DNA from: Trametopsis cervina | Taxonomy: Eukaryota; Basidiomycota; Agaricomycetes; Polyporales; Irpicaceae | Reading direction: 5' to 3' | Length of the DNA: 64,000 bases | Assembly (NCBI GenBank): GCA_022385755.1 | Contig: MU278348.1 | Coordinates: 779,035 to 843,034, forward strand | Part shown: positions 5,072 through 21,865 of the stretch, one piece after another | Layout: each line of letters opens with the position of its first letter | How positions within the stretch are numbered: the stretch's first letter is position 1 | The notes under the pieces: model-generated | Seen by the model: only the letters and a program-made list of their open reading frames with translations | Told to the model about the DNA's origin: nothing | Databases searched by the model: none | Position numbers and translations under genes: made by a program

Positions 5072-5922
5072 TTACCCGAACTTCTCCTTAGCCATCTGCA
5101 TAAACATATCCATCGTCGCCTTGTCCTTCTGCCGTATAGCGTCAGCGCGGTTTCGCGCAGTCGCGTCTCGGTCATCCTTTGCTCCAAACTTCTTCTCATC
5201 CATTCGCTTTCGCGCAGCATCTCGCCGTGCGATGCTGTACACGTGTAGACATTTTGAGTAACTGAGCGATAACTAGTGCCATAAGCCAAGAGAGTTACGT
5301 ACCGTTCCTGGAAACTATCTCCACCTCCCATTAGTGTAGAATCATCTGCCTCGAAGCCGTCATCCCCTTTCTCCCTAAATGACCTGTCCGCCTCTCGCCT
5401 TGCCCGTTTCTTTTCCAACATTCCCTCCCGCCCAACCTCCTTCGGCCCGACCATCTCCTCGAGTTTGTCTTTGGCGTCGAGCTTGTCGCGCTTTCTTTTG
5501 CGATCTCTTTCAGACAGATGCGACGACTCTGCATCTTCACGCGCCATAATCAGGTCGGATTGGCTTGGCAGCGTGGGGCCTTGTAGACGGCCGCTGCCGC
5601 TTGCGGATGGTCCCACATTGGAGCGAGCGTAGGTCGCAGCACCGACCTCCGCACGCGCAGCTCGGACAGCTTCGGCATCGGCCCTAGAAGCCTTCGAAGC
5701 AAACGACCATTTGTACCCGGTCTGGCTGCTGGCTGCTTGGGGTTCCACGCCATAATATAATGATTCTATAAAGCGTAATTAGCAATGGGGACATGACGAA
5801 GTATGAGTTACGCACTTGCGAGCTTCCCTCTATTCCAAGCCTAGAAAGACATATAAATTTAAGAAGTGATAAGAACGGGGTGAAGGGACAGAGCGCGTAC
5901 CTTCACAAACTTGCGGAAGTAT
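5072..5922 (-). CDS. RS-rich conserved protein, exons 3-6 (C-terminal part of a split gene)
   Basis: Four exons (5922-5901, 5840-5816, 5765-5303, 5234-5072) encode the C-terminal ~224 residues: YFRKFVKAWNRGKL, LYYGVEP, a YKWSFASK segment, a charged stretch rich in Lys, Arg and Glu (SERDRKRKRDKLDAK) and an ending in MQMAKEKFG. There is no usable ATG in frame at the 5' end: upstream of 5922 the frame runs into a stop (TAA) about 50 nt further on. The first base of this part completes an Arg codon left open by the exon ending at 18955. The conserved block continues straight on from the N-terminal part at 19.2-18.9 kb, giving a 296-aa protein. The motif set (RS dipeptides, then a WL...YL.EL...YFRKFV.AWN block) suggests a nuclear RNA-processing protein; function is not established here. 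Confidence 0.82.
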
Positions 5923-5958
5923 CTGCTTAATATCTCAGCAACTACAGCAAGATGTTAT

Positions 5959-5984
5959 GACATGACTCATGTCACAAATTTGTG
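5959..5984. repeat. Two overlapping perfect palindromes at the left end of the inserted block
   Basis: GACATGACTCATGTC (5959-5973, 7-bp arms, one centre base) runs into CACAAATTTGTG (5973-5984). They sit 37 bp upstream of the exon-3 acceptor of the RS-rich gene and directly before the first TCTAGA-rich unit. Such a tight pair may mark a junction or a protein-binding site; no factor is assigned. Confidence 0.55.
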
Positions 5985-5986
5985 AA

Positions 5987-6695
5987 GCGCCTCTAGACGC
6001 CTCTAGAGATCAAGAGAGGGTTATAGACGCCCAAGCAGTATAGAGCATATCGAGACGTCAGCGGTGTTGTCTAGAGAGCACAGCTATCTCTCGACACCTG
6101 ATAAGCCCTTGGGCGACTGGCTAGCGCTTCTGGCGAGCCGGTGTCTCCCGCGAGGCCTAATGGGGGCTCTCCGGGCATGCTTCTATCTCACGATAGTGGT
6201 CTCATCTCGAGATAGCCTCTAGATGTGACCCGGTGGCTCCCGCAAGACTGCGGGACATCGGGATAGGGTTTGAATCCTCACGAGCCAGCCTCCATAGTAC
6301 CAACTAGTCCACTGGTTTCTTACTGAGTACTATTATCACTACTAAGTATTAATTGTTATTTGATTGCTTCATCACATGTTACAATCACCCGCACTTACAA
6401 CTTCTTATTACTATTTGTAGTTACTTAATGCTATGACTATTGAGTATCAACCATACCCTTACAACTTGTTCTATTCTATTATTTGTATTGTACCATACAA
6501 TTGTACGTTTAAGTTACTGATACACTAGCAACTAGTCTTTCATTAAACTTCGCCCACGTCCAGGATTGAACTTGCGGCCTCGCGCGAGCGAAGCGCCTAC
6601 CTAGAGAGTCTCTACCTCACAAAACCGCTATGCTATCACACCTTGACTACAACTAATGTATCTTAAATTTATGCCGCATATCGAGCGCCTCTAGA
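5987..6695. repeat. TCTAGA-rich repeat element with 11-bp direct repeats at its ends
   Basis: The 11-mer GCGCCTCTAGA occurs at 5987-5997 and again at 6685-6695; GCATATCGAG occurs at 6045-6054 and 6676-6685. TCTAGA is present at 5992, 6002, 6070, 6218 and 6690, far above chance for 700 bp. The centre (about 6330-6540) is AT-rich and has no ORF. No transposase is encoded. The arrangement suggests a short non-autonomous element or a nested repeat. A related stretch lies at 18.71-18.84 kb, the other end of the inserted block. Confidence 0.55.
6545..6650 (-). other. tRNA-like / SINE-like Pol III promoter module
   Basis: On the minus strand TAGCATAGCGG matches a tRNA A box and, about 60 nt downstream, GTTCAATCC matches a B box. 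The sequence does not fold into a good cloverleaf: the T stem has several mismatches and the variable part is too long. A similar B-box word, GGTTTGAATCC, with a 6/7-bp acceptor-like stem, lies on the plus strand at about 6230-6290 without a full tRNA around it. These look like decayed tRNA-derived SINE pieces rather than working tRNA genes. Confidence 0.35.
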
Positions 6696-6819
6696 GCCGC
6701 ACTTATAACACCCAAATTCATTAGACCCAACCGTAGTGTAAGGAAGCCAGGTGCGCAAATTGTATTCAGAGGGCTTGGATACATGGTACAAACTCGTGAA
6801 AGACCCAGGTGTGCTGCCA

Positions 6820-8564
6820 TCATGCTTTACTCTTTTTCCCACCCTTTCCCGTCTGTCGAGTAGTGCGTCGAGGCTGACCACCGGTGGGAGGCTTTGCGGG
6901 CATGTCCTTCTCGAGAACAATGTCATCCGTGGGACTCCGCGTGGAGGTAGGCTCTGGCGGCATACTACTGGTCAGTTCTGAAGTGCGCGCTGCTACCTCT
7001 GCGGATGTGGAAGTCTGTTGGCTACCAGAAGCGGAGGCAGATGGCAGCGACACATATGATAAGAAACCAGATGCCGCGGTAGCAGCACTGTCCCTTGAGG
7101 CATGGGCTTCGGATGCTGACTGCGATTGAGGGCCGGCGGAGTCAGAACCAGAAGTGGCAACGGTAACTTGACCAAATGTTGCCTCCAACTTCCGCATGTG
7201 TGCAGCAACTTCGTCGTCGTCATCATCGGTGGTTGCATTGGTCGCGCTTGATGCAGTTGTGTTCTGCTGATCGAAGAGCTGTGAATTGTACCATTTGATG
7301 AGATTGACCGTGCCAGGGTTGTACAAGCGCCACAGGAGATCCAGATATCTAATCAAAAGGATACTCGTTAGAAGCATATTTGGTTGACTGCGGGAGCTAT
7401 CCGTACGTGTCAAAGAATTGCTGATAGGGATACTGTACTATATTATTCCCATCAGACCTCGGAATGAAGACGTTATCGCCAGCGGTAATGTAAACCAGCT
7501 GTGTGCAGGTATATTTACATAGGCAGACAAGATAGGTACGGAGAAATAAGCACATACCACAGTTGCAGCCAGTGCGATCAAAGCCGGGGTTACGCTCGTG
7601 AGGCCCCACTTGTACGCTTTGGAGAGGCGGTTTGTTGCGGATTTTCCTTTAGGGGCGTTTTTACCGAAAATACCACATTGGATGATCTGCGAAAAGTGTT
7701 GAATGCCCGAGCATGAATGAGAGACAAGTACTCACGACAAGAATTCTTTTGCTCTTGAATAGCCAGGCGCCATCGTCGATATGATCCGGGGGAAAGAGCA
7801 CATCACAAAATGCTTTGTTCGGAGTTCGAGGCAAGAGGCGTTGCAGTTCAGCGCATGCTTTCCGATCGGCAGCAGAGTCGAGTGAGGTGTTTGGAAGGTT
7901 TAAGTCGGCGAAGATGTAGTGGACATTGCTTGTAGCTGCGTGAACAAACTTTGACCGATCCTGTGTGCCGTGCATAAACTATACAGTATTAGAAACCTTC
8001 TGTCAATGCAGACCGGTAATCCGTACTCACCCCTGCAAGTAAGTCTGCATGCGTTCCCAACAGCGCGACCAGTTCACTGTCTGGCGCAAAATAATCCCAG
8101 GCCTCGGCTTGATGAGCGAGAACAGGGTCAGCTGCTTGCGCGGCGTAGTCTTTCAAGTCGATGACAGGGCGTGTTGGAGTCAGAGCGCGGATCCAGTCAC
8201 GTTCGGCCCACGCATGGCATAACACGACATACTTGCGGCCGAGGTCAACCGCTCTCCAATATATTGGACGTTCCTTACTTGGGTCTGCATCCGTTTCGGC
8301 AGCTGTGGTCTGATTTGTAGTCTTACTTGTAGATTGATGCCTCGTACTAGTCTTGATCAAGAGTTGCTCCTTCTGATCGCGGATTGTTTCCTTGAGCCCT
8401 TCAATCTCCAGCTGGGCATCGCGGAGACTCTGTCAAGGTGTGAGATTAACAGAACACGGTACACACAGGATAACACGTACTTGGATGAGGGCAGCGATGC
8501 GCGCGCTCTCATTACTTTGCCTTGCGTGAAAATCTCCTCCGTCGGAACTGTCGCTATCATCCAT
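6820..8564 (-). CDS. Unrecognised 491-aa protein with coiled coil and acidic/basic tail
   Basis: Six exons in phase: 8564-8481, 8429-8031, 7978-7736, 7686-7558, 7498-7407, 7348-6820 (491 aa). The N-terminus is acidic (MDDSDSSDGGDF), then a likely coiled coil (IAALIQSLRDAQLEIEGLKE and following). The middle is a compact domain with Trp and Tyr landmarks (YWRAVDLGRKYVVLCHAWAE; CDVLFPPDHIDDGAWLFKSK; YKWGLTSVTPALIALAATV). The tail is low complexity: DDDDDE, Ser/Ala/Thr-rich, ending in a basic run (TGKGGKKSKA). No catalytic motif is seen. It resembles the expanded, functionally unassigned protein families of mushrooms, which is my inference. It lies in the accessory block and looks intact. Confidence 0.75.
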
Positions 8565-8756
8565 TAGCACAGGTGTTGAGAACGAAGTAAAAAACGGCGG
8601 AGATGCGAGGGCAACTGTACTTACCTGCCATATTCGCGGCCGCGATAAATAGGTGGGAGGAGAACAGCATGTGATAATGAACTGAAAAACGTGTTGGTCA
8701 GATGAGCATGCGCACTCTGCACACGAGCTGCGCGGCGACCTAAAGATTACTCACAT

Positions 8757-9353
8757 TTACGTGATATAAACGAACGGAGGGCATGCCTCCGCAAAGAAGA
8801 CTGACTCAGCTGCAAATAAATCGCATGGAATGAGTGCATTCTGATTAAAGAATGCTAAATACGCACTTGTGTTTGTTCGATTTGGATCCGTGATGAGAAA
8901 CCTGCGGATGAATATCATATGAACATGCATGCTGTACGGGAGACGTAGTATTACCGTCACTGCGAGGAGCTTGTTGACACTTACATGAATGCTTGAAACG
9001 TAACTTGCAGTGCGGTGTCAAGATGATGGTCCGAGTGGAATTTAGAAACAAAACAATCTGGTGGAGCATTGAGTGCTCGCTCCCTAGATTAGCAACATCA
9101 AGAGCCGGACGCTCCGCAGTAGTGCTGATGATTTGATCATAGATGTCTCACCTGAGGTCCGGAATTTACAGATGAGAACAATGCTTTCTTGGTGCGGTAG
9201 AACACGTACCCTAGATCCGTGAGGGACATAATGAGCTCGACCGCCTTGAGGTAAGCTGCCGGACTCTTGCGGCGGTAGAGACGAATACCGATCCAGAGGG
9301 ACTTGAGTGCCTTGTCGAATGATTCTATACCGAGGGGGCAGGGTACTTCGTAT
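8757..9353 (-). CDS. Exons of an unrecognised protein (parent gene uncertain)
   Basis: Four segments join in phase: 9353-9210, 9083-8985, 8901-8867, 8809-8757, ending with TAA at 8759-8757. They read ESFDKALKSLWIGIRLYRRK, LKAVELIMSLTDLG, ERALNAPPDCFVSKFHSDHH, FLITDPNRTNT and ESVFFAEACPPFVYIT. No start codon belongs clearly to this set. It can be joined in phase to the membrane exons upstream through a 94-bp intron, but a 57-bp intron there gives a better match to the sensor-type family and ends at a stop. It may be the tail of a rearranged gene. No domain is recognised. Confidence 0.4.
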
Positions 9354-10187
9354 CTACATATGACGCTCGGGCACGATGAGCGAACATGCTCTGCAGCAGT
9401 GTGAGTACAACAGCAGAGGTGTTACAAAAAAGGAAGGAAATACGCACAGGGCTATGAACGACACCGTCCCTACCAGAGCCGGAAAACGATCTGAGTTCAA
9501 CCCGAAGAGCGCAATCACAGGCAGCGCAGACGAGTAACTGCAACGCACCGAGCAGCGATCAGCCATGCCTACCCGCAGAAATCGCAGCGCAGCGCACTCA
9601 CTAGAACATCGCCAAAAAGTCCTTCGTCCCACAATCGAACCGTGCCGTCTCCTTCTTATAATACCCACACAGATACATCACCAACAACAAATACACCGCC
9701 CACATCCACGTCGACACCGTCAGCGTGACCTGGTACACGAGCCGGCGCCGCCGCGGGAAGTCGAAGAGGATCATGAAGAAGATCGCGAATGTGAAGGGCG
9801 GGGCGACGCCCCAGAAGAAGATCTTGTCGCAGAAGAGCGTCGGCTGCGGGATGAAGGCGACGGAGACTACCCAGTTCAGGATGTAGAACGCGGCGCACCA
9901 GATTGCGACTGGCTACACGCGGGCAGTGTGAGAATCAAATTAGATTTGTGTTGGAAAAATTGTGGAGGGGGAGGGGACGAACCTTGCGCAGATACCAGTT
10001 CTCAGACCTGTATCACTCCTCGGACGTCTCCTCGCTGAACCGGGGGTCGAAAAACGTGCGCACGGCAGGCCACATGCGCCAGCGCACCGCCGACACCACC
10101 CTCGTCACTGCAAAACTGCTGTGCTCCGACGCATTGTCTGTCTGAGTCTGCCCACCACCACCAACAGCGGCAATGGCGGGAGTCCAC
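9354..10187 (-). pseudogene. Broken N-terminal membrane region of a mushroom sensor-type protein
   Basis: Exons about 10187-9983, 9912-9602, 9537-9448 and 9390-9354 encode a series of hydrophobic helices with family-type landmarks: MWPAVRTFFDPRFSEE, ENWYLRKPVAIW, FYILNWVV, FAIFFMILFDFPRRRR, YLLLVMYLCGYYKKE, FDCGTKDFLAMF, ALFGLNSDRFPALVG, ACSLIVPERHM. From memory this matches the membrane part that precedes cyclase or histidine-kinase modules in multicopy basidiomycete proteins. An in-frame TGA (10015-10013) interrupts the first exon between SEE and YRSENW, and TAG (9356-9354) ends the frame after PERHM. No catalytic domain follows. Codons are strongly GC-ended, as in a once well-expressed gene. 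Decay is likely; sequencing error is possible. Confidence 0.55.
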
Positions 10188-10239
10188 ACAGGTCGCTGCG
10201 CCTTCTCTCCCTGCCCCTGCTTGGAGCTGTTAGTATTCT

Positions 10240-11039
10240 TCAGATCGTCGCCCCACTCGCGATCGACGACTCGACATTGATCCTGATTTGCTCTGCCATC
10301 TCGTTCCCGAGGATGTGGTTTAACCAGGCGTACGCCATATCACCACCTTCATGACCGAGTAGGTAAGCATCAAGTCCCGCACACGAGTCTACGGATAGCA
10401 TCCTCACCTGCAGTCACTCCAGAGCTAGTCCACAGGTTGCCGTCAACGACCCAGCGTGCCTTCGGGACCCATGTGATGCCCCGGTCGCTGTACGTATCCT
10501 GTGTGGAAACTGCCGTAATGAGCAAGACAGCACTGCCGTTGTGAGAAAGGAAACATCTTACAGGGATACGCTTGCCGTCTTGCCGTCAAAGGCCCCCGAG
10601 TGGGCAAGGATCTCCGCGCCCGTGCAGATCGAGAGGATGTACTTTGCGCCCGCATACTGCTTCTTCACAAAGTCATGAAGCGCCTGTGGGAGCTCTTCTG
10701 CTTGGGTGGCCCAACCTGGCGCGACGTCAGCTACCGCCCTCTGGCAACACTCGTGTCGCGTTACGCACCACCAGGGACCATGAGGACATCAAACTGCTTG
10801 TCCAAGGCGGCCGCATACGTCGTTGTCAGGATCAAGTGAGGACCAGAGGCTGCAACTACGGGTTCCATCGTCTCAGCGAGGAATGTAATCGTCAGGTTCA
10901 CGGCCGGTGGAGGCTGGAGCATCTCGTAGTGGATGGCGTCGCGCCAGAGCCTTGTCATCATCTCCAAGGGCACTTGGTAGTCGGTCGGGGTAACATTTTT
11001 GAAGAGGCAGAGAGCAACAGACCAAACGGGTGCGGTCAT
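10240..11039 (-). CDS. DJ-1/PfpI-family (class I glutamine amidotransferase-like) protein
   Basis: Four exons in phase: 11039-10769, 10715-10570, 10498-10408, 10346-10240; 204 aa. Landmarks in order: VALCLFKNVTPTDYQVPLEM (N-terminal strand and cofactor loop), DVLMVPGG, KYILSICTGAEILAHSGAFD with the nucleophile-elbow Cys, then ITWVPKARWVVDGNLWTSSG and a C-terminal helix. This fits the fungal ThiJ/PfpI branch, which includes isonitrile-hydratase-like and chaperone or detoxification proteins; the substrate cannot be told from sequence. The family's usual residues after the GKKAT motif (TNK.. region) are missing between exons 2 and 3, so either that splice is wrong or the protein has a small deletion. 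It lies in the accessory block and has no stop in frame. Confidence 0.85.
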
Positions 11040-11399
11040 TGTAAGCAGGTGTTGAGGAGTGTATGAGGGGAGTGGTCTGTGCTGGTTCGCGGTGGTAGTA
11101 GCTTGGTTGGTCGAGGGGAAGATGAAAACTGCGATGCGGAATCTGCTGCATCTTTATATCCCTCCATTCTCACCTTCTCTTGCAACCTGTGTCAAGTGGC
11201 GATGGCAGCTTACACGATCCGAAGAGCTGTCGTCAGCTGGGAGAAGCGCACGCTGAGGCATCGAAGGCGTAGCTTCGTGCACGTCCTTGGCAGCGGCGGT
11301 TGTAATATCGAAGACTGTACGACATCACTGGCCGTGCATCAGCCGCGCGCGTGAGACGTTTCTTGGGGATGTCGGGGGCTTAGACAAGGCTGTGTATGA

Positions 11400-12170
11400 C
11401 GCGTGGGGTATACCGAGACCTGCAAGTATGTCCCCATTATGCCTGAGGCGACCTCATCGATCTCGTCTGCCTCTGCGAGAGCCTGTGCCCTCTTCGTCGA
11501 TCCCCACCACGAGCCGAGAAGCTCGTTCCCCTCCACGCCCTCCTTGTTCTCCGTCTCTGGCTGGTCTTCTTCCGATGTGGGCGGCACCGGGCTCGCCTCG
11601 AACTGGCGGAGCAGTCTGCGCCAGGCTCCTGCCGTCCATTCTTGCGTCGTCTCTTTCACTCGTTTGTGAAGACTTGGGAAGCCGCGGCGACGACGCTGCG
11701 GGTGGGTTTCGAGCGAGAATTGTTGGACGGGGGCGGGGAGGAGAGAGCCTGAGGGTGTGGCTGGGCTGGTGCTGATGCTGGTGCTGGTGAAATCGGTGGT
11801 GGGGTGCTGCTTCCTCGGAGTGGCCAACTCATCCTTGGTGATTGTCCGGTCGAAAGACCCGCCCGCTTGCATGGCAGTGTCGCGGGAGAGAGAACGACCT
11901 CTCTGGGCGACGAGTTGTTGGTGTCGAGCAGGACAATGATGAAGCGGTGATGAAGAGGAACTCACCAGGTGATCCGTGCCGTGCAGGCAGACAGGATGTA
12001 GGTTGTGCGGGAGCGGGCGACGGTCGTGGTAGCAGTGAATAAACTGGCAACTGGTTTTCGCTCGTGAGAGGGAGGTGCTGACCCACATGCAGCAGGGCGC
12101 ACATGTTCGCCATTGTGAAGTTGTCAAAGCTGACCGTCTGCGGACTTTGCACGATCATCGGGCTCGACAT
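11400..12170 (-). CDS. Possible exon(s) of a low-complexity hypothetical protein
   Basis: A long minus-strand frame (about 11950-11410) reads like coding sequence: SRDTAMQAGGSFDRTITKDE, a Ser/Thr/Pro-rich linker (TSTSISTSPATPSGS), LHKRVKETTQEWTAGAWRR, then an acidic stretch (TSEEDQPETENKEGVEGNE). A separate frame starts MSSPMIVQSPQTVSFDNF at 12170. The join between them and the 3' end are not resolved. No domain is recognised. It could be the C-terminal tail of the gene that includes the GH92-like blocks, or an unrelated gene. 11040-11400 shows nothing further. Confidence 0.28.
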
Positions 12171-12479
12171 TCGCCACCGTGCGGGCCGCGGGGCATCACC
12201 ATCTGGAAGTGCAGGCCGTGGCTGCTGTTGGTGTGGTGGCCCATGTGCTGGTGGGCGCTGTGGTGGGAGGGGTGGACGTTGTGAGCGAACGGCTAGCCAC
12301 AGATATCTTTGGGCTCGTCGTTCATCGAGTTGACACCCTGGGACGCCATGCCACTGTGGAAAGGTCCGTCCTCATCATTGTATTTAGCATCGCCCCTAGG
12401 TTCTCGTCCGTATCTACTAACCCGTACATTAGCTTCCACCCAATCGAAATGTGGGGACACTCACAATCAGCGGATGAGA

Positions 12480-13340
12480 TATTCATCCTATACGCTGAGC
12501 TATGAAACAGCTGGACAATATCGGGCGCCACGCCCTCTGTCTGCACCTTCACGCATCCGAGCAGCTTGTCCTACGTGTCGAACGCGCTCTGCTGGACGCA
12601 TGCGAAGTGGAACGTCAGGATCTCGGATTCGGCGTTTGTGCAGGCTTTGCGTGGAGGAAATGAAGGAGATACCGATGCGCACTAGGATCAAGGTCGGGCC
12701 TGTGGGGGGGGGGACAAGAACAGTGTGTAAGTGTTAATTGCTCGACGGTAGTAGACGTTCTCACTCTTCTTCGCACACGGTTTGAACGTTAGCAGTGCGC
12801 CGAGCTGTTCTCGGAAACCTGAAGGACAGTCAGTGTCACATCTTACAAGTATCACATCAGGGTGGCTGCGTACCAAAGTAGAACTGCTGGATGCCCGAAT
12901 TGCCCAACCACGAGCCAGATTGCGTCGGCGTGCCCTGTTCACCAGCACATTGTTCAACATGACCATCGCTCGACGACACATGTTGTACTTACAAGATCGG
13001 ACCGTTGCCCTTGAAGTCGACGCACATAAAGCGCGATACCGTCCAGGGCCGAATGATGCCGCGAACGACGCGCCGTCTGTAACGCTCCTGTATCAGCAGA
13101 ACTCGCAGCCGCACAAACACAGGGAAGGAAGTGAAGAAGAGGCACGCACCGGTGACGCGCGCGGACGTGCCGTTGAGAGTATAACCAGGTCCGTGCTGCT
13201 CTGCTGCCCGTCATTCGTGATGTCGACCATCAACCGCGGGTGCACGGTCCCCGCTGGGAATGTGTACCTGTGCAGGGCCGTCCCACGCGTCGCGGTGAGC
13301 TCGATGCGGATTCCACAGCAAGCCGGAGCGGTCGCGCTAT
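12480..13340 (-). pseudogene. Broken GH92-like alpha-1,2-mannosidase
   Basis: Conserved GH92-type blocks appear in order on the minus strand: GIRIELTATRGTALHRYTFP and HPRLMVDITNDGQQSST (13314-13190), YTLNGTSARVT, GASFAASFGPGRYR, MCVDFKGNGPI, GSWLGNSGIQQFYF, REQLGALLTF, LILVRIGISFISSTQ, ACTNAESEIL, then LLGCVKVQTEGVAPDIVQLF. The frame changes by one base between blocks at about 13188, 13030 and 12648, each at a short homopolymer, and TAG at 12573-12571 stands where the family has Trp. The catalytic half further downstream is not recognisable. An intact enzyme would trim mannose from glycans. Family identity is from remembered motif order; the breaks are seen directly. Confidence 0.6.
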
Positions 13341-14646
13341 TCGTTCAGCTTACAACGGAGGATGCCTGCTTCAAGCTTGACCAGTAAAGCTCGCGGGCCG
13401 CGAGGAGACGGTGCCTGCGGGAAGCATGGATGCGTCTGATCGCGCTGTTGACGATGGAAGACTTGGACAAACGGCGGATTGGCGAGAGGTTGGGCAGAAG
13501 AGCGATGAGATCCTGGGGAGCGCATGATATTAGGATATAACTGTGAGCATGAGAAAAACTATCAGGGTCTACTCACCAGAAACCAGCTGTTCATAGTCTC
13601 CCTGCGCGCGCAGTTGACAGCGTTATGGGTGGCCCTGCGCTTCGCAGTGTCGGCGCACCTGCTGGGCTTGCACTTCCGAGGTTGTCCAGTAGTGGAGTTG
13701 GTGGCAGCAGAGCCTATGTCAAAAGACACGTGTTCCTGGCTGGGGTGGCTGTTTGTATCAACGTGCGGAGGAAGGGAGAGGGTCTGGACGTAGGGGGCGA
13801 GACAGGGGTGTAAGAACCGTTGGAGCCATCGGCAGATGACCGGAGAGATCGGGGGCAAGAGATGATGGGCAAGAGGCTGAGAATGCATGAGATGTGGTGT
13901 TACGAATGTCGAAGACAGGTCCAATGTCGAATTAACGGACTTTGTTGGTAACCTATCTCAAGGCTGTTCCTCAAACCTAAAAGTGAGCGCGGCCACCGCA
14001 GCAGCCAGAGTCGACCGCGGTCATCATTGGTCGGCGAAAAGCGGCTATGTTCGGGTTGTAAAGCATACTTGCGCCTGCGGATACATGCGCTATGCTTCCT
14101 TGTGCACATGAAAGAGAGCCTCGACGAGCCGCTCTGTGTGAGGCCGACTACGGCTGGCTCGAGCGTGTAATGGTGTCCTGTCAAGAGAGTGCATATCAGA
14201 AAAAGCCCATGCATGCAGGAGAAGAACATACATAGCTGGCACAATGCGAGTGTGTCGGCATGGGGAGACGGCCCTCGTTGCGGTACTTTCCAGTGCGTTG
14301 GAACGCTCCGCTGCTTATGCAGGTTGGGACGACCGGCTTGGCAGGATATGTGACGAAGCACTACACAACTAGATGTCATAAACGAGGACGCAGGATGCAC
14401 AAGCGGGGCAGAGCGCACATAGCAGCCCTCGCCAAAGTCTGTGTGTTGCATCTACGTCTTGACCTTCACATACCCTGAACATTGTAAAAGCCCACGATTC
14501 GAGTTTAGTTGAAGAGCCAGAAAGGGGGGAATTGGGTGTATGAGTGCTGGCGGTTGCTGGTGAGGAGCGCGAGAAGATTTGTGTCGCCTGCGCTTGGAGC
14601 GCATACCCGATTGGGAAGGTGCCCTTTGTGGCGTTTCCGTTTTAGA
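13341..14646. other. No recognisable gene between GH92 remnant and assembly gap
   Basis: Minus-strand segments at about 13.4-13.9 kb (PAGTVSSRPASFTGQ; DLIALLPNLSPIRR) could be further decayed N-terminal pieces of the GH92-like gene, but no consistent exon chain was found. 13925-14580 has overlapping frames on both strands with no motif. 14580-14646 next to the gap may hold the last residues of the transposase but matches nothing I can name. Confidence 0.4.
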
Positions 14647-14924
14647 NNNNNNNNNNNNNNNNNNNNNNNNNNNNNNNNNNNNNNNNNNNNNNNNNNNNNN
14701 NNNNNNNNNNNNNNNNNNNNNNNNNNNNNNNNNNNNNNNNNNNNNNNNNNNNNNNNNNNNNNNNNNNNNNNNNNNNNNNNNNNNNNNNNNNNNNNNNNNN
14801 NNNNNNNNNNNNNNNNNNNNNNNNNNNNNNNNNNNNNNNNNNNNNNNNNNNNNNNNNNNNNNNNNNNNNNNNNNNNNNNNNNNNNNNNNNNNNNNNNNNN
14901 NNNNNNNNNNNNNNNNNNNNNNNN
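14647..14924. other. Assembly gap (278 N)
   Basis: All bases are N. The gap cuts the 3' end of the Plavaka-like transposase gene and shows that the inserted block was scaffolded across unsequenced DNA. Confidence 1.
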
Positions 14925-17900
14925 GCGGTCTACCTGTCTTATCTGCGGGCTAACGGAAGGGGAATGGTAAGGGTGAACCAAGGCAAGGCCATACACATTG
15001 TCATTAAGAGTGTAGGTGAAAACTCTGACCAGTTCGCAAAAGACGAGGAGGGATCCGTCGAGATCAACAAGGACGTTGTCGTAGCGTGGACGTCTGTGAA
15101 ACAATGGGGAGCAGCGAAGTCGGTCGGTGAGCAGACGCCACGACACAGTCGATTCGTAGTCGACCTTCAGATACTTGCATTCAACAACCTTATCACACTC
15201 CCAGTCAGTATTCGGCTTATGGTAGTGAGAAGGATTTTACTGAACCTTATCTTCGTCCACAATCGACACAGAAACACGTTCCTCACCACGGTCGCGAGAC
15301 AATATGTCCGCTAAGCATTTCGAGAGCTTCTGTTTGAACTTATGGAATGCGGGGTCACGGAGAACCACGGTGTCACCCTCGTTTTGCATGGTGAATTCAT
15401 GGATGGATACCAGACGTTCTCGCGAGCCAAGATAAACCTGATTGAACTGCCATGGTGACGACCGCTCCTCAACTTCATTTGGTTCTGCCTTTGACTTAGC
15501 GCAATGTTCGTCCCACGCGGTAACGTGCGCATGGATGGTAGAAGAAACAAACGACCGATCCTCAAGATTACCGAGCTGGATAAAGTAAGCGAAGTGTCTC
15601 GATTAAATAGTAACAGCGCAAAGGGCTCACCTGTTTCTCGACACTCTTGAAGTTAGTCATTAGCTGGTAGTATAGGCGCATCTCGCGATTCAGCTTTTCA
15701 TTCGGCTTCGTGTCCATATTTGCGATAACACCTTTAGCGCGAATGTCACGAACCGCATGAGTATGGGAGTGAGTCTTGATTATTGCGTCCCAGTCCTTGT
15801 TAATGCCCGATGTGTTTCCGTAGGCCTGTAGTAATTCGGCCAAGTAAATTAAGACCTGTGCAACCCAAACGAAAGGACGCACCTTCAGCTGCTCGTCAAA
15901 CTGTGAGAGGGTTTGCTCGAATGCAGCAATCGTCTTCTCAGTCTGAACCTCCAGGGCCACGAGGGCGTTGAGTTCGATCCACTTACGGATCACCTTCAAA
16001 AGGGCATATCCCTTTGGTCCTCCGTACTTCATGATCGGACCGTATACTGCATGTAATAAAACCTTCACTCATCAAGCTCGCATAATCAGTGCATTATTAG
16101 ACGTTATAAAACCATCATGCACCTTCGACAAGTCCTCCCACTTCTTTCCATCGCTAAAATCCTGCTTGAAAATTTCGCCGTCGAAATGTGCTAAACCCTC
16201 CCATCTAGGCATTCGAGATAATCTAGAGCGAATAATCAGCAAATTCGAATGAATGCCGATGAACATTACTTACAGCTCTTCAATCCGGACCCTAGCTTCA
16301 CGTGGAAGTTCCTCGACCAGGAGCTTCAGTTGTTGCAGAAGATGCTTCTGCCACAACCCGATAATGTATGCATGTAAGCGATCGAACGAGAGTGCCTCAT
16401 GTACGTCTGAATTTGCAACATCCCAGAAGGCATTCTGTGGTCATGCGATGAGATTTGAACCGGAATAAAGAAACACGACACACCGGAATATCTCGCAGCC
16501 CGAAAATCTTCAGGATCTGATTTTTTTGCGCAGAGTGGGGCTGTTTGATTAATGTCTCGGTCTTTGAGGCGCTGCGAAGAGAATATGTTACACTGAGGTC
16601 AGAAAGTGTCCCTTTAGGTATAATGCAGATCGGACATGGTGCGAGGGAGCGCAAACCACGAATCAAGGCAAAACGGACTCTACGGTAAAAAGGGCATCAG
16701 ATCTCGGATGACGTTGCATTCAAAACCCTCACTGTTCTTCGTAGTCCGCTGATATGATGTTGATGAATGGGAAGAGGGTGCGTAAAATGTTGTCACCACA
16801 CCGATAGTGGTACCCAACTTTCGAGTGTCGGGCAATGTCCTTCAAGAACTCTTTGAACGCACTGTGATAGACGGCGTTCTTGAAATTGACGAATTTTGTC
16901 TTCTTGCTGTGCTGGGCGTTCTCCTCAACCTGTCTCGCACAGAGAATAAGTTAGCCCAGTATCATTACATCGAGCGAGATATCACATACAATAGGAATGA
17001 AACCGACTATCCGTCCTCCCCCCAAAAAGCCGCCGTTTCGAATATGCGCGGGAAGATTTCCGATACGCGCAACGATGAAGTGTCCCTTCTGCTTGCCGAA
17101 ATTTGAGAGTTTTGCGGTATCTGCCCACAGGATGATTGACAGTGGCTTGCCTGTGGGATCCATTTTAGTGATTTCGGACTATGAAGACAAGATGAGACGA
17201 AAAATTGAGCGAATGCGCGAAAGATGCGAACCTGTGCTTTGGCGAACATGGTGCCTGTCCACGGCTCGTCATAGAAGCGCACCCACTGCTGCCCATCGAA
17301 CTTAGAAAGCCGCTGCGCGTCCCATTCAAAATGGGGTGCCAAAAGGGGGTCTTTCACTTGATATAGAATCCAGTCCCAGAGAGACCGATGATGAAATTCA
17401 AAGGGCTCTGTTATGTCTTTATATTTCACCTCCATGTTCGTTGTTTGAAACTATAAATGCGTTGAAAATGAACTACATGTGTGGATCAAAGGGGACTACA
17501 ACCTACGGGCGCATGGTGGAGATTCGCGCGTTCCCATGCATTGTGGACGTCTTCGACCCTCTCAAACGTCATCTCCTTGCTGCTGCGATAACCATCCTTA
17601 ATGAGCGCAAGGAGGCGCGCCGTTAGAGCTCCGCTCAGATGCGCATCATGAGCAAACGCCGCAACCTCGAAATCCATTCGAGAAGCGAATGGATGCCAAG
17701 CAGTCTCCTTGAGCAGCTCTGGGTCGGCTTTACGCTTCTCTTGTTTATACTCCTCGAACGGATAGACCACCGTGAGCCTCGACCGGCCGGAATTCTTGTG
17801 ATACTCAACTTTTATATCATCGCGAGTTGGTGGAGAAGGTGCGGTAGGGAATAACGGCGCTGAAAGTGGTAGAGGGGTGGGGGGCATTTCTGAATTGTTC

Positions 17901-18468
17901 ACATCTGCGTAGCCATCAGTGCTTCCCCCGTGACAGTACATGCCAAAGAACATACCAGAGTGTTGAAATGCATCATCGTCGTCCGGTATAGAGAGGGGTT
18001 CAGCGTGTACGTTGTGGGGCCCGCTCAATATTTGATGGTCCGAAACCGAATCAGACTCGTTGGATTCAATATCTAGAGGTGCTGCATCATGAGACTTTGT
18101 TGCGGAGGTAGAGAGTGACCTACCGCTGCCACCAAGCAGTTCGCGAGATGGACCAGGCGTGGGAGATGGAGGGTCGGCCTGCCTCGCAAGTCTGCCTGGT
18201 ATACTGATAAACCGTGAGTTAACAGGCGTGACAGTTGACACATACCACATTTTGGGGTTCTGTGCAAATCCGCTTCTGCTGCCCGTTTCCGGTTCTCTTC
18301 ATAAAATGCGTCGAGCTCACGCTCCGCTTGACAAGACTTCTGGTGCCTTGGTAATCCCCGAGGATCGCACTCCCTCTGGCAGAACTTGCAGGCAACTCGA
18401 ATGTCACTTGAATACCTGCCAGTTTTGGGGGCGTTTGCTTTTCTTTTTCTGGTCCATGAGGCGGGCAT
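14925..18468 (-). mobile_element. Plavaka-like (CACTA superfamily) transposase gene, 3' end in gap
   Basis: Twelve exons in phase: 18468-18242, 18203-17507, 17450-17232, 17178-16990, 16929-16733, 16679-16484, 16434-16274, 16222-16113, 16046-15883, 15825-15631, 15575-15246, 15188-14925; 983 codons before the N gap. A C2HC zinc finger (CKFCQRECDPRGLPRHQKSC) lies at about residues 27-46, then an acidic Ser/Pro linker. The body has the order of motifs I know from mushroom Plavaka transposases: WHPFASRMDFEVAAFAHDA, FYDEPWTGTMFAKAQ, LSIILWADTAKLSNFG, CPICIIPKGTL, NAFWDVANSDVHEALSFDRL, KGYALLKVIRKWIELNA, KPNEKLNREMRLYYQLMTNF, RCSPLFHRRPRYDNVLVDL, LALVHPY. No stop or frameshift was seen. Terminal inverted repeats and target duplications were not found by eye. 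Intron 1 (38 bp) is the least certain. Confidence 0.85.
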
Positions 18469-18704
18469 GTTAGAGGGACTGGATTATGAAGCAAGCGTAT
18501 TAGCCTTCCGCAAATTATGGGAGACGAAGCGAATGGAGTCCTACACGTACCAATATCCCACAGAGAATAGCTAACAGCTGAAAACAGGCGGGGGATTAGC
18601 GAAGAGGTTGGAAAACAAGAGTTGGGACCCGTGTCAAGTTGAACGATGGAATGGGCGCCTCCAGATGAGTGCAAGAGGCTTTATCGAGGCCTGGAGATAA
18701 GTCG

Positions 18705-18910
18705 TCTGATCTAGAGGGCATCATGTGATTGCTAGAGACCCCCGTGCAAATATCGAGGGTTCGCGGGATAAGGACTTTGGCGCTCTAGATGCCGAAATAG
18801 GCAGGGTGTTCCCTCTAGAGATTCAATGATATTTCTAGAGCTTTGATCAATAATCACTACGTATCGAGACGCTATCGAGATACAATCAAGAGCACGTCCG
18901 GATGCACCCG
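18705..18910. repeat. TCTAGA/TCGATA-rich repeat at the right end of the inserted block
   Basis: TCTAGA occurs at 18710, 18784, 18814 and 18834, interspersed with TATCGAG and CTATCGAGA words (about 18750, 18860, 18875). The same words fill 5987-6695 at the left end. The stretch lies within intron 2 of the RS-rich gene, 45-250 bp from exon 2. It shows no ORF of its own. The element's full extent cannot be set without other copies. Confidence 0.5.
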
Positions 18911-18954
18911 GGATGCCCGCGTCTCTGGAGGGCGTTTCAGTTTTTCTGACACAC

Positions 18955-19228
18955 CTGTGAGACCTATCACTGGACAATTCGTCAAGGTACTGTACAAATT
19001 CTGCCATTAGTACGTAGCTCTACTTCCCACACAGGCAGAACTTACCTTGTCTTTCTCGTCCTTCAGCCACACCTTGAACTCATCGCTGCGCAGGAAATAA
19101 TCCGACTCGGAGATGGGCTTCGCGTCGTTGGGAAGCCTTACAACGCGTTCAGAAGACTCTGAACGGCCTCTAGAGCGCGACCTCGACCGTTCACGAGATC
19201 GCGAGCGGCCTCTTCGGTGGGAAGGCAT
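18955..19228 (-). CDS. RS-rich conserved protein, exons 1-2 (N-terminal part of a split gene)
   Basis: Exon 1 (19228-19046) starts MPSHRRGRSRSRERSRSRSR, an RS domain of the kind found in splicing factors, followed by SDYFLRSDEFKVWLKDEKDK. Exon 2 (18989-18955) adds YLDELSSDRSHR and ends two bases into a codon at a GTGTGT donor. The next ~300 bp on the minus strand offer no acceptor followed by coding sequence of this family. The continuation, YFRKFVKAWNRGKL, is found at 5922 on the same strand in the right phase. The protein start is clear: ATG at 19228 with stops upstream. If the 13-kb gap is real DNA, this transcript would have to splice out a block containing several other genes, or the gene is broken. 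Confidence 0.82.
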
Positions 19229-19443: not shown

Positions 19444-21865
19444 CTATGTCTTAGATATAGTAGCATCAACGCTCTGACTATTATCCTGGATATGTAGCTC
19501 GTCCATGAGCTGCATAACAGTCTCGAAGCCAACCTCATCTTTGCTCTTGTTTGACCCCGATTGACGGTTGTTGATGAGTGCCCAGACCATCCTCTCATCC
19601 CAGAGCGCCTTGTTCCTCTGCAATGTGACGAGATATTGGTCCAGCGAATACTGACTAAACTTTTCGTACGCCTCTGTACCGGGCTTCGGTTTAGTAATTT
19701 CTGTGCCGGGGATGCACGTCTCCCAAGTCGAGTCGCCTATAATAATACGACAAGCACGAGTGCAAATTGAGCGCTCATAGTAATATTCAACGAAGAGTAT
19801 CACGCACCATATACCTCCTCCGAAATCACCTTCCTGCTCTTCATGATCTCCTTTCGCAGCTTGGTCTTAGCCGTCAGAATTAGATAAGTGAGTTCCGCAA
19901 TGATATCCCCGCCAATGTTCTTTACAACACTGGTCGTGACGTCGCCTCCGATGTTCCCAGCCTCCAGACACCGCTGCACGAATTCTGTGGAGTACATCGC
20001 CCCAAAGTTCCTCGCGGTCATACCCTCAGGGCATAGCCGGTCCACATCGACGGCAAGCTTGAGTGGCGCGTTAGGGTCCAGAGGGCGCACTTTCTTCCCC
20101 GCCTGGGCAGCCTCCTTCTCTCGCGCCTTGTGCGACTGCACTAAACGCGTTCTGGCGGCCTTGGTGAATTGACCTGTGAGCCACTTCACTGTCTGCTCGT
20201 GATCCCATGTGCGGGGATCGGAGGGGTTGTATGGGGCGGGTCCGCGGGGTTTGGGTGGCGCGGTCTTGAATGGCGAGGCATACGATAACGTATTAACGCT
20301 ATGGACCGAGTCTTGGATGTGGGGTGATACGTGCGCGATGATTATTGTCTTCGATGGCGTTCTTGCCTCCACGTCGAACACAGGCTGGTCAAGGTTCTCG
20401 TCACAGACTTAGGCTGCAAACGCAATCGGTACACACCTTCAGGAGCATCGTCAACTTGTTGGCACGCCACGGGATGTGCACAAAGCCGTCCTCTTGCGCC
20501 ATCTTGGCCTTCGCGCGCACACATTCCTTCAGTTGCATGAGACTGTTGTTATTGTCACGGGACTCCACCATGCGCTTTTTGTCGTGGCCCTTCGAATCTT
20601 CGTATCGCTCGCTCCCAGCGAGACTATCGTACGGAGTATCTCAGCAATGTGTGATAGAGCTTTACTACATAATCCAACGCACTCGACCAGAATCAACTGC
20701 CCATCTTGTGCAAATGGCATAAGTTTGTTCTTGATTCGGATGTTCAGCAGTGCGTGACTTCGGCTGGAAGTAGCATTTCGCGCGGTCGCTGAAACTCGCC
20801 TAAACGATGGGTCAGTTCTCGATAGCTGTAGAAGTCAGTCTAACGCTTACCTGTATGAGAGTGCTGACGTTATGAGCTCATCCAGATGCTCCGCCGACTC
20901 GACAACGCGAGACATGACGCGCGGGCGCACGTCCCCATTCTAGACAATCCTATGAAGTCATGACGGGAGACAACGCAGCATCGACGTACCTTGTCCTCGC
21001 TCACAGCAACCTCCTTCCTCACAGGACGGCCTTGATCGTCAAGAGGCAAGTCATCGGCAGGTTCCAGGAGGTCCACCACTCCCTTGCCCAGCAACTCTAG
21101 AAATGTTACGCTGAACTCGAACACACCGCCCCCGTCCTGCAACTCGGGATGGGAGTCCGGGCTCACTTTCCGCTCTGCGGCGAGCAGTCGGGCGCCGGTC
21201 TTCTCGGCTGCGAGAAATAAGTCGCGAGCGATACGATACTCGAGTGCTTCCATCGTGTACGTCTTGCCGGTACCGGTTTGTCCGTAGGCGAGCACACATG
21301 CTGTGCCAGACGCCAGCGCAAGAGGTATCATCTGCATAGGACGCAGATCAATAAGAGTACTCCGAGCATATAACAGGAATACTAACATCGTTGGCGATGA
21401 CCGTGCGCTGGTATACCTCGTCGTTGTTCACTTCCGGACCGAAGGCGACGTCTGAGGCGTACTTCTTATGTGTGAGTGTAGGACCGGACCACTTTCGTTT
21501 CGATGTTAGCAGTATGCACAGTGTTTCGCCAATGCAGATAGGCGTACCTTCATCCCAGGCACATGAGCGACAAAGATGCCAGGCTCGGCGCTGGCCACTG
21601 TCACACCAGAGCAGAATGTGGTCTCTTCTGCATCGTCTTCGGTGGCAGCAGCACTGAACTTGTTCTCCGCCTCTTGCGGGAGCGGTGGACGCGTTCTGAA
21701 CGCGACATTCACGTCCTTTCCGCGCTGTCCAGTGAAGTCTTGCGCCTGGATATCTTCGAGTGGAGTCGTGAACGGAGTACAAGGGGGCTGTTCCTTACGC
21801 CATTTCTCGAGCTCCTCTCGCAGATGCGGCAAGTGTGTTGTGGTCAGGGAGGCAGAGGAGGCCAT
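19444..21865 (-). CDS. Kinesin motor protein (kinesin-13/KIF24-like)
   Basis: Eight exons in phase: 21865-21548, 21491-21387, 21331-20990, 20939-20851, 20799-20683, 20623-20437, 20384-19808, 19736-19444; 675 aa. The motor has P-loop GQTGTGKTYTM (about residues 158-168), switch I NATSSRSHALLNI and switch II DLAGSERYED, all in the right order, followed by HIPWRANKLTMLLK and an ISP-type AHVSPH strand. An N-terminal extension of about 45 residues precedes the motor, as in internal-motor kinesins. After the motor a WDHEQTVKWLTGQF segment looks SAM-like, followed by a helical tail. Microtubule-depolymerising activity is a family inference. The stop is 215 bp from the start of the RS-rich gene on the same strand. 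Confidence 0.92.

Follow-up and report, generated by a model that had tools for sequence, protein, structure and literature searches.

In the basidiomycete Trametopsis cervina, a conserved arginine/serine-rich (RS-rich) gene is split between its second and third exons by a 13-kb interval, which is very probably a single DNA transposon of the Plavaka family, lying in intron 2 and carrying fragments of five host genes nested within one another that are likely to have been gained through repeated break repair copying host genes. The gene lies on contig MU278348.1 of assembly GCA_022385755.1, in the stretch of 64,000 nucleotides analysed here (positions 779,035 to 843,034 of the forward strand), which is called the window and to which all coordinates given without a contig prefix refer. 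The interval has inverted termini bordered by a TG duplication and contains a transposase frame that is open up to a gap in the sequence; a source locus was found for each of the five fragments, and a copy of the element on another contig, C33, is devoid of one of them, derived from a DJ-1/PfpI gene. A suspected assembly error is in this way traced to the insertion of a transposon and probably preserves, layer by layer, a history of the uptake of genes by mobile DNA.

The split gene and the ends of the element

The six exons of the host gene join to an open frame encoding a protein of 296 amino acids, in which the codon divided between exons 2 and 3 (AG/A) specifies arginine, and the introns other than intron 2 measure 56, 60, 50 and 68 nt. 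An earlier note on this DNA had described the split gene from the letters alone, and its exon coordinates, strand, 13,032-bp interval, split arginine codon and otherwise short introns (50-68 nt) all hold. A protein search yielded 540 relatives at E <= 0.001, of which 120 were listed; among these 120, PF27660 is found in the relatives, the name 'splicing arginine serine-rich 12' is given to some, and those with a species name are from what we take to be mushroom-forming fungi. In an alignment of ten sequences, comprising this protein and nine of the 120 listed relatives, the join of exons 2 and 3 is free of gaps in all eight homologues from other species, the remaining relative, P0003, being a public record of the same T. 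cervina gene with a different N-terminus (100% identity over 76% of the query). Searched as two blocks, exons 1-2 and 3-6 have one match each in the 29.4-Mb assembly, and no intact second copy of the gene was found there with either block.

Between exons 2 and 3 (18954-5923), the 13,032 bp are made up of 12,982 bp of transposon and 50 nt outside it, 3 nt on the exon 2 side and 47 nt on the exon 3 side, with both TG copies counted. In the order of the gene strand, GTG comes directly after exon 2 and precedes TGTCAGAAAAACTGAAACGCC, and at the opposite edge GGCGCTTCACAAATTTGTGACA is followed by TGAGTCATG...AAGCAG and exon 3. The termini (TGTCAGAAA.../...TTTGTGACA, with TG on either flank) are imperfect inverted repeats of each other. 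Removal of the 12,982 bp and of one TG yields a 48-nt intron, GTGAGTCATGTCATAACATCTTGCTGTAGTTGCTGAGATATTAAGCAG (GTGAGTCATG...AAGCAG; GTGAGT...GCAG), which has a standard donor and resembles the neighbouring introns of the gene. The motif TCTAGA occurs four times in the first 400 bp of the transposon, five times in the last 1,100 bp and twice in the 11,482 bp between; a repeat search within the 13,032-bp interval, with these TCTAGA-rich ends counted separately, returned short repeats only, and no Rfam family matched the window at gathering scores.

The transposase contains the Plavaka domain PF18759 (E = 1.3e-41, residues 286-605). Helitrons are not known to have terminal inverted repeats or target duplications; the element differs from them in having both, and a Helitron reading was dropped for this reason. 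A Starship reading was also dropped, the marks of Starships being lacking in an assessment made with no Starship-specific model. Target duplications of 2 bp and 5'-TGT..ACA-3' termini are marks of PlavakaA (PMC12730594). The element is flanked by TG on both sides and has the termini TGTCAG...GTGACA, and its transposase frame contains CPIC, in a comparison that covered the C(2)C part of a further mark, the C(2)C and H(3-4)H motifs between the catalytic residues. Transposase domain, duplication and termini together suggest an assignment to the PlavakaA type.

Two explanations of the interval had been offered in the earlier note, an intron that had taken in a large cargo segment and two contigs that had been joined wrongly. 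The first is borne out by the edges of the element, which are transposon termini with matching 2-bp duplications. A wrong joining of the gene halves, by way of a repeat or over the gap of 278 bases, would agree with the position of the gap inside the element and with the ends of contigs C33 and C51 inside copies of it, the assembler having had trouble with this repeat. However, the flanking sequences are two halves of one gene, in the right order, strand and splice phase and with a TG duplication, each exon block has a single match, and joining different insertion sites would restore neither the gene nor its intron; such an artefact can scarcely be credited. Indeed, a misjoin is very unlikely because both edges are transposon termini with 2-bp duplications and the same right end is found, with other flanks, on C33. 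Accessory genes, a transposon and repeats had been placed in the interval: the transposon stands, but as a single 12,982-bp element and not side by side with other features, and the supposed accessory genes are broken, nested pieces of host genes. Trans-splicing, which had also been considered, finds no support here and is not needed. The coordinates of all features are collected in Table 1.

Table 1. Features of the split gene and of the putative Plavaka transposon, in window coordinates
Feature	Position	Strand	Basis, source or remark
Plavaka (putatively PlavakaA-type) transposon in intron 2	5970..18951	-	12,982 bp, TGTCA...TGACA
Target-site duplication TG, left copy	18952..18953	.	sequence at element edge
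Target-site duplication TG, right copy	5968..5969	.	sequence at element edge
Left terminal inverted repeat, TGTCAGAAA...TGAAACGCC	18930..18951	-	end comparison
Right terminal inverted repeat, TGTCACAAATTTGTGAAGCGCC, read inward	5970..5991	+	end comparison
Plavaka transposase gene	14925..18468	-	12 exons visible, predicted splice sites; C-terminus inside 278-N gap
Run of 278 N inside transposon	14647..14924	.	sequence
SF3B1 fragment, first parts, outermost layer	13879..13975	-	source C9:811144-811076 + C9:810805-810778
bHLH gene fragment, left part	13325..13865	-	source C19:60403-60951
GH92 mannosidase fragment, nested in bHLH fragment	12399..13314	-	source C18:482923-481982
bHLH gene fragment, right part	12047..12395	-	source C19:61053-61402
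Histidine kinase locus fragment, left part	11449..12048	-	source C21:307809-308413
DJ-1/PfpI gene fragment, nested in kinase fragment	10270..11450	-	source C12:74490-75694
Histidine kinase locus fragment, right part	9343..10270	-	source C21:308413-309348
SF3B1 fragment, last parts	9056..9341	-	source C9:810529-810330 + C9:808882-808825
Second transposon gene	6823..8432	-	interrupted open reading frames
Exon 1, conserved RS-rich gene	19046..19228	-	open frame, homologue alignment
Exon 2	18955..18989	-	open frame, homologue alignment
Exon 3	5901..5922	-	open frame
Exon 4	5816..5840	-	open frame
Exon 5	5303..5765	-	open frame
Exon 6	5072..5234	-	open frame
Public model P0003 (BDW22DRAFT_1341155), start codon (6178) and first exon, inside right end of transposon	6082..6178	-	first exon end approximate

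Nested fragments of five host genes

Matched against the rest of the genome, the stretch 13975-9056, between the two genes of the transposon, resolves for the most part into pieces of five host genes, nested in two chains. In one, the SF3B1 fragment encloses the bHLH fragment, which encloses that of GH92; in the other, the SF3B1 fragment encloses the histidine kinase fragment, which encloses that of DJ-1/PfpI. The SF3B1 source (PF08920) is matched at 73.5-77.4% identity in three pieces (58-200 bp) and at 89% in one 28-bp piece. Identities without gaps are 453/541 (83.7%) and 297/349 (85.1%) for the bHLH pieces, the source of which has an HLH match (E = 7.5e-4, 19.7 bits) just below the cut-off of 20.7; 782/911 (85.8%) for the GH92 piece (source Pfam E = 6.7e-14); 1407/1516 (92.8%) for the histidine kinase piece, presumably the 5' portion of its gene, the HisKA match of the source (E = 1.2e-6) lying just beside the captured part; and 1139/1181 (96.4%) for the DJ-1/PfpI piece (source Pfam E = 1.4e-11). 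Identity is higher, and the piece hence younger, on the inside of each chain, the step from bHLH (84-85%) to GH92 (86%) being small.

The point at which the bHLH fragment entered SF3B1 lies between C9:810778 and 810777. Entry of the kinase fragment into SF3B1 was accompanied by the loss of about four bases, and that of DJ-1 into the kinase piece by the loss of none, with one or two bases shared at the borders. No target duplication was seen at the four entry junctions of bHLH, kinase, DJ-1 and GH92. The DJ-1 piece is truncated before the last codons and carries a deletion of 22 bp; what was copied was genomic DNA, because the piece keeps about 410 bp ahead of the start codon as well as predicted introns.

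A second copy and the order of capture

The right end of the element recurs on C33 (91% identity over positions 6-831 of a query of 878), with GA behind it, in a copy that reaches the end of the contig, and 95 bp of the left end recur, preceded by GA, at the end of C51 (C51:64243-64337). The two contigs may be neighbours that were broken at a single copy of the element, each holding one side of it, with GA as the duplication. A search with a pattern modelled on the right terminal repeat, and covering ends of that spacing but not the shorter-spaced left end, found two places in the genome, namely this element and C33.

Pieces of SF3B1, bHLH, GH92 and the kinase are present in the C33 copy, partly longer than in the intron 2 element, while DJ-1 is absent and the kinase sequence is continuous, as it is at its source locus. 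When this element, C33 and the host locus were compared site by site, the host alone differed at 55 of 1509 kinase sites, this copy alone at 46 and C33 alone at 82; the corresponding numbers are 39, 9 and 10 for 308 bHLH sites, 11, 3 and 2 for another 54 bHLH sites, and 23, 9 and 11 for 278 GH92 sites. The 55 host-only differences in the kinase indicate changes that arose after a single capture and are common to the two copies. Together with the absence of DJ-1 from C33, the changes common to both copies place four captures before the parting of the copies and that of DJ-1 after it; as judged from these comparisons, DJ-1 was the last to be captured.

The kinase stretch (12048-11449, 10270-9343) differs by 8.8% between the two copies, compared with 4.3% for the transposon's own right part, an excess that suggests unequal constraint or conversion.

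Related elements and the genes of the transposon

A related element of 13,835 bp is found on C18 (C18:175709-161875), with the ends TGTCG...CGACA, TA on both flanks and a transposase that is 66% identical in DNA. The search for its cargo covered C18:164600-171600, where two pieces from C17 (94-96%), one of them from beside a CAF1A gene (PF12253), lie between pieces from C25 (72-79%), and where SNF5 pieces from C11 (73-80%) are also present; young pieces thus lie between old ones, as in the intron 2 element. No Pfam match was obtained for two of the four source genes of this element, the first C17 gene and that of C25. The strand could be read by Pfam for seven of the nine source genes of both elements, and all seven are in sense with the transposase, in a count in which the kinase and CAF1A matches lie beside the captured part and the bHLH match is just below the cut-off.

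Behind a third Plavaka transposase, on C9, the stretch C9:1086048-1087387 resembles C5:1053332-1054557 (74%) and, over a short length, C5:1055259-1055318, and may be another captured piece; the locus was not counted as a third case, the sequence behind the transposase mostly matching a high-copy repeat. The contig end, C9:1088695-1091332, is occupied by a high-copy repeat with lengths of about 700 bp and above. Some copies of the C9 repeat lie near contig starts (C7, C26, C27, C28 and C50), and it is perhaps subtelomeric.

The transposase frame of the intron 2 element is open for 981 codons up to the gap and has 11 predicted introns of 49-60 nt, the acceptor of the first being placed at the next AG with the C9 relative as a guide and an open frame in view. 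Among 7,993 candidates scored, 82 relatives were found at E <= 0.001, and a public partial protein record, P0121, is 96% identical. A match of the transposase open reading frame to an adenovirus protein (Pfam E = 4e-4, below its cut-off) was rejected as likely noise. The open reading frames of the second transposon gene have no Pfam match, and a related one on C18 has a sub-threshold match to DUF6698 (E = 0.0077).

How the fragments may have been captured

The ends and the duplication point to an insertion driven by the transposase, in which TG would have been duplicated directly after GTGAGT, the 5' splice site. Each capture would then be set off by a double-strand break in the part of the element that separates its two genes; repair would fill the break by switching template to a host locus, and the ends would be closed again, in most cases with little or no loss of bases. 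As the process was repeated over time, later captures would hit earlier ones, since these fill much of the stretch. Break repair by template switching is the likely route because the junctions are mostly clean, without duplications, and the sources are distant. In animal Pack-TIRs, microhomology (median 2 bp) is reported at at least one breakpoint in 190 (67.6%), and a gap-filling process is proposed for most of the single-copy ones (PMC8277862).

Alternatively, the aberrant excision of two neighbouring transposon copies could have trapped host DNA between them, as proposed for Pack-CACTA of Arabidopsis. Such a model exists in the literature (PMC13317346), and Plavaka transposases are described as similar to those of EnSpm (CACTA) (PMC12730594). 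With sources on five different contigs (C9, C12, C18, C19 and C21), and with pieces that, at the junctions inspected, lie inside each other, mostly at the cost of few or no bases and with no transposon ends at their borders, this route is nevertheless unlikely, and patch repair fits better. The inner fragments could also be working cargo genes that benefit the host, in the manner of Starships, as might be expected from the shared sense of the seven strand-readable pieces (five here, CAF1A and SNF5 in the C18 element) and from an open frame of 260 codons across the SF3B1/kinase join of C33. This is quite unlikely, however, given that the pieces are partial and interrupt one another, that DJ-1 is truncated and carries its deletion, and that different parts have been lost in the two copies of the element. 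Beyond the repair of breaks, it is conceivable, though doubtful, that Plavaka elements have a built-in docking stretch between both genes, in which host pieces are stacked in sense with the newest inside the oldest; if so, each autonomous element would both archive host genes in order of time and shuffle them as it moves itself, and in its effect would be the eukaryotic counterpart of an integron array.

Several observations weigh against a single transposon filled by repeated repair. The gap leaves one unread stretch within the element, a duplication of 2 bp is short, random flanks matching by chance at a rate of about 1/16, and template switching itself is read from the junctions, one of which, the entry of GH92 into bHLH, involved the loss of about 58 bp of bHLH and a short filler. 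The 95 bp on C51 are identical to this element, compared with a difference of 4-10% for C33, and C51 and C33 are perhaps not one copy. The kinase piece is closer here to the host (92.8%) than to C33 (91.2%), which leaves room for conversion by the host gene, although the 55 common changes still favour one capture. The C18 case is less clean, since the order of the C25 pieces is in part disturbed and a stretch of about 580 bp of C25 is absent where the C17 pieces were inserted, and the stretch behind the third transposase, on C9, is mainly high-copy repeat (60 matches listed; 40 of 85 candidates scored).

Consequences for the host gene

The insertion changed the donor of intron 2 from GTGAGT to GTGTGT and left its acceptor untouched. 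Since the new donor is predicted to be usable and the gene's own acceptor is kept, splicing of the host gene may continue, though less efficiently. In soybean, a CACTA element of 13,024 nt that lies where intron 2 of the R gene begins is removed accurately by splicing in a plant line in which the element is more methylated (PMC4219821). Inactivation of the gene, with transcripts of exons 1-2 ending in the transposon and a shortened protein starting inside it, is a serious possibility, though slightly the less probable outcome: the public model P0003 starts within the transposon and is without exons 1-2, and the other introns of the gene are very much shorter (50-68 nt), but both exon blocks keep an open frame and the soybean gene offers a precedent for accurate splicing across 13 kb. 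The start of P0003 is likely to be a prediction artefact, or possibly reflects a transposon-born transcript; it illustrates how a public gene model can begin inside a transposon and drop the first exons. Just past the host gene, at 20870-21427 of the window, lies AYGQTGTGKTYTM, which we take to be a kinesin-like motor motif.

Comparison with known systems

The uptake of host DNA by terminal inverted repeat (TIR) transposons is an open question, for which this element provides a worked example of gene capture, the order of events being readable from nesting, divergence and a second copy. Its zero-loss junctions, a genomic copy with predicted introns and the existence of a related element with a comparable arrangement make template-switch repair directly testable in a fungus.

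PlavakaA elements of Agaricomycotina share with the element a Plavaka transposase, a 2-bp duplication and 5'-TGT..ACA-3' termini; the Plavaka passengers reported in the available text of that account are TET/JBP dioxygenase genes, in PlavakaB only, whereas those found here are nested fragments of ordinary host genes (PMC12730594). No report of nested host-gene capture by Plavaka was found in a literature search conducted mainly at the level of titles and the beginnings of abstracts.

Plant Pack-TYPE elements and animal Pack-TIRs likewise hold host fragments between inverted ends, with clean or microhomology junctions (PMC8903248, PMC13317346, PMC8277862), and sequence of five host genes lies between terminal inverted repeats here. 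Pack-TYPE elements are non-autonomous elements of plants (PMC8903248); this one is fungal, holds five pieces in a readable order and, to judge from its 981-codon frame up to the gap, has a transposase of its own and would not count as non-autonomous. The hAT elements with histone H3 in Dothideomycetes are also fungal DNA transposons with a captured housekeeping gene, but theirs is one gene, captured as a transcript or retrocopy, whereas five are nested here and DJ-1 is genomic, with predicted introns (PMC6710886). Helitrons of Pleurotus are, as here, basidiomycete transposons with captured genes (PMC4289320). In its size of 13,024 nt, its position at the start of intron 2 and its two predicted element genes, the soybean CACTA element TgmR* is similar, yet it is a plant element of a related group, across which splicing was shown by RNA-Seq (PMC4219821), whereas splicing across the present element is a prediction. 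On the reading of its predicted genes and captured pieces, the element is a fungal, Plavaka-type, gene-capturing TIR transposon that carries its own putative transposase and whose nested captures can be read as a succession of events.

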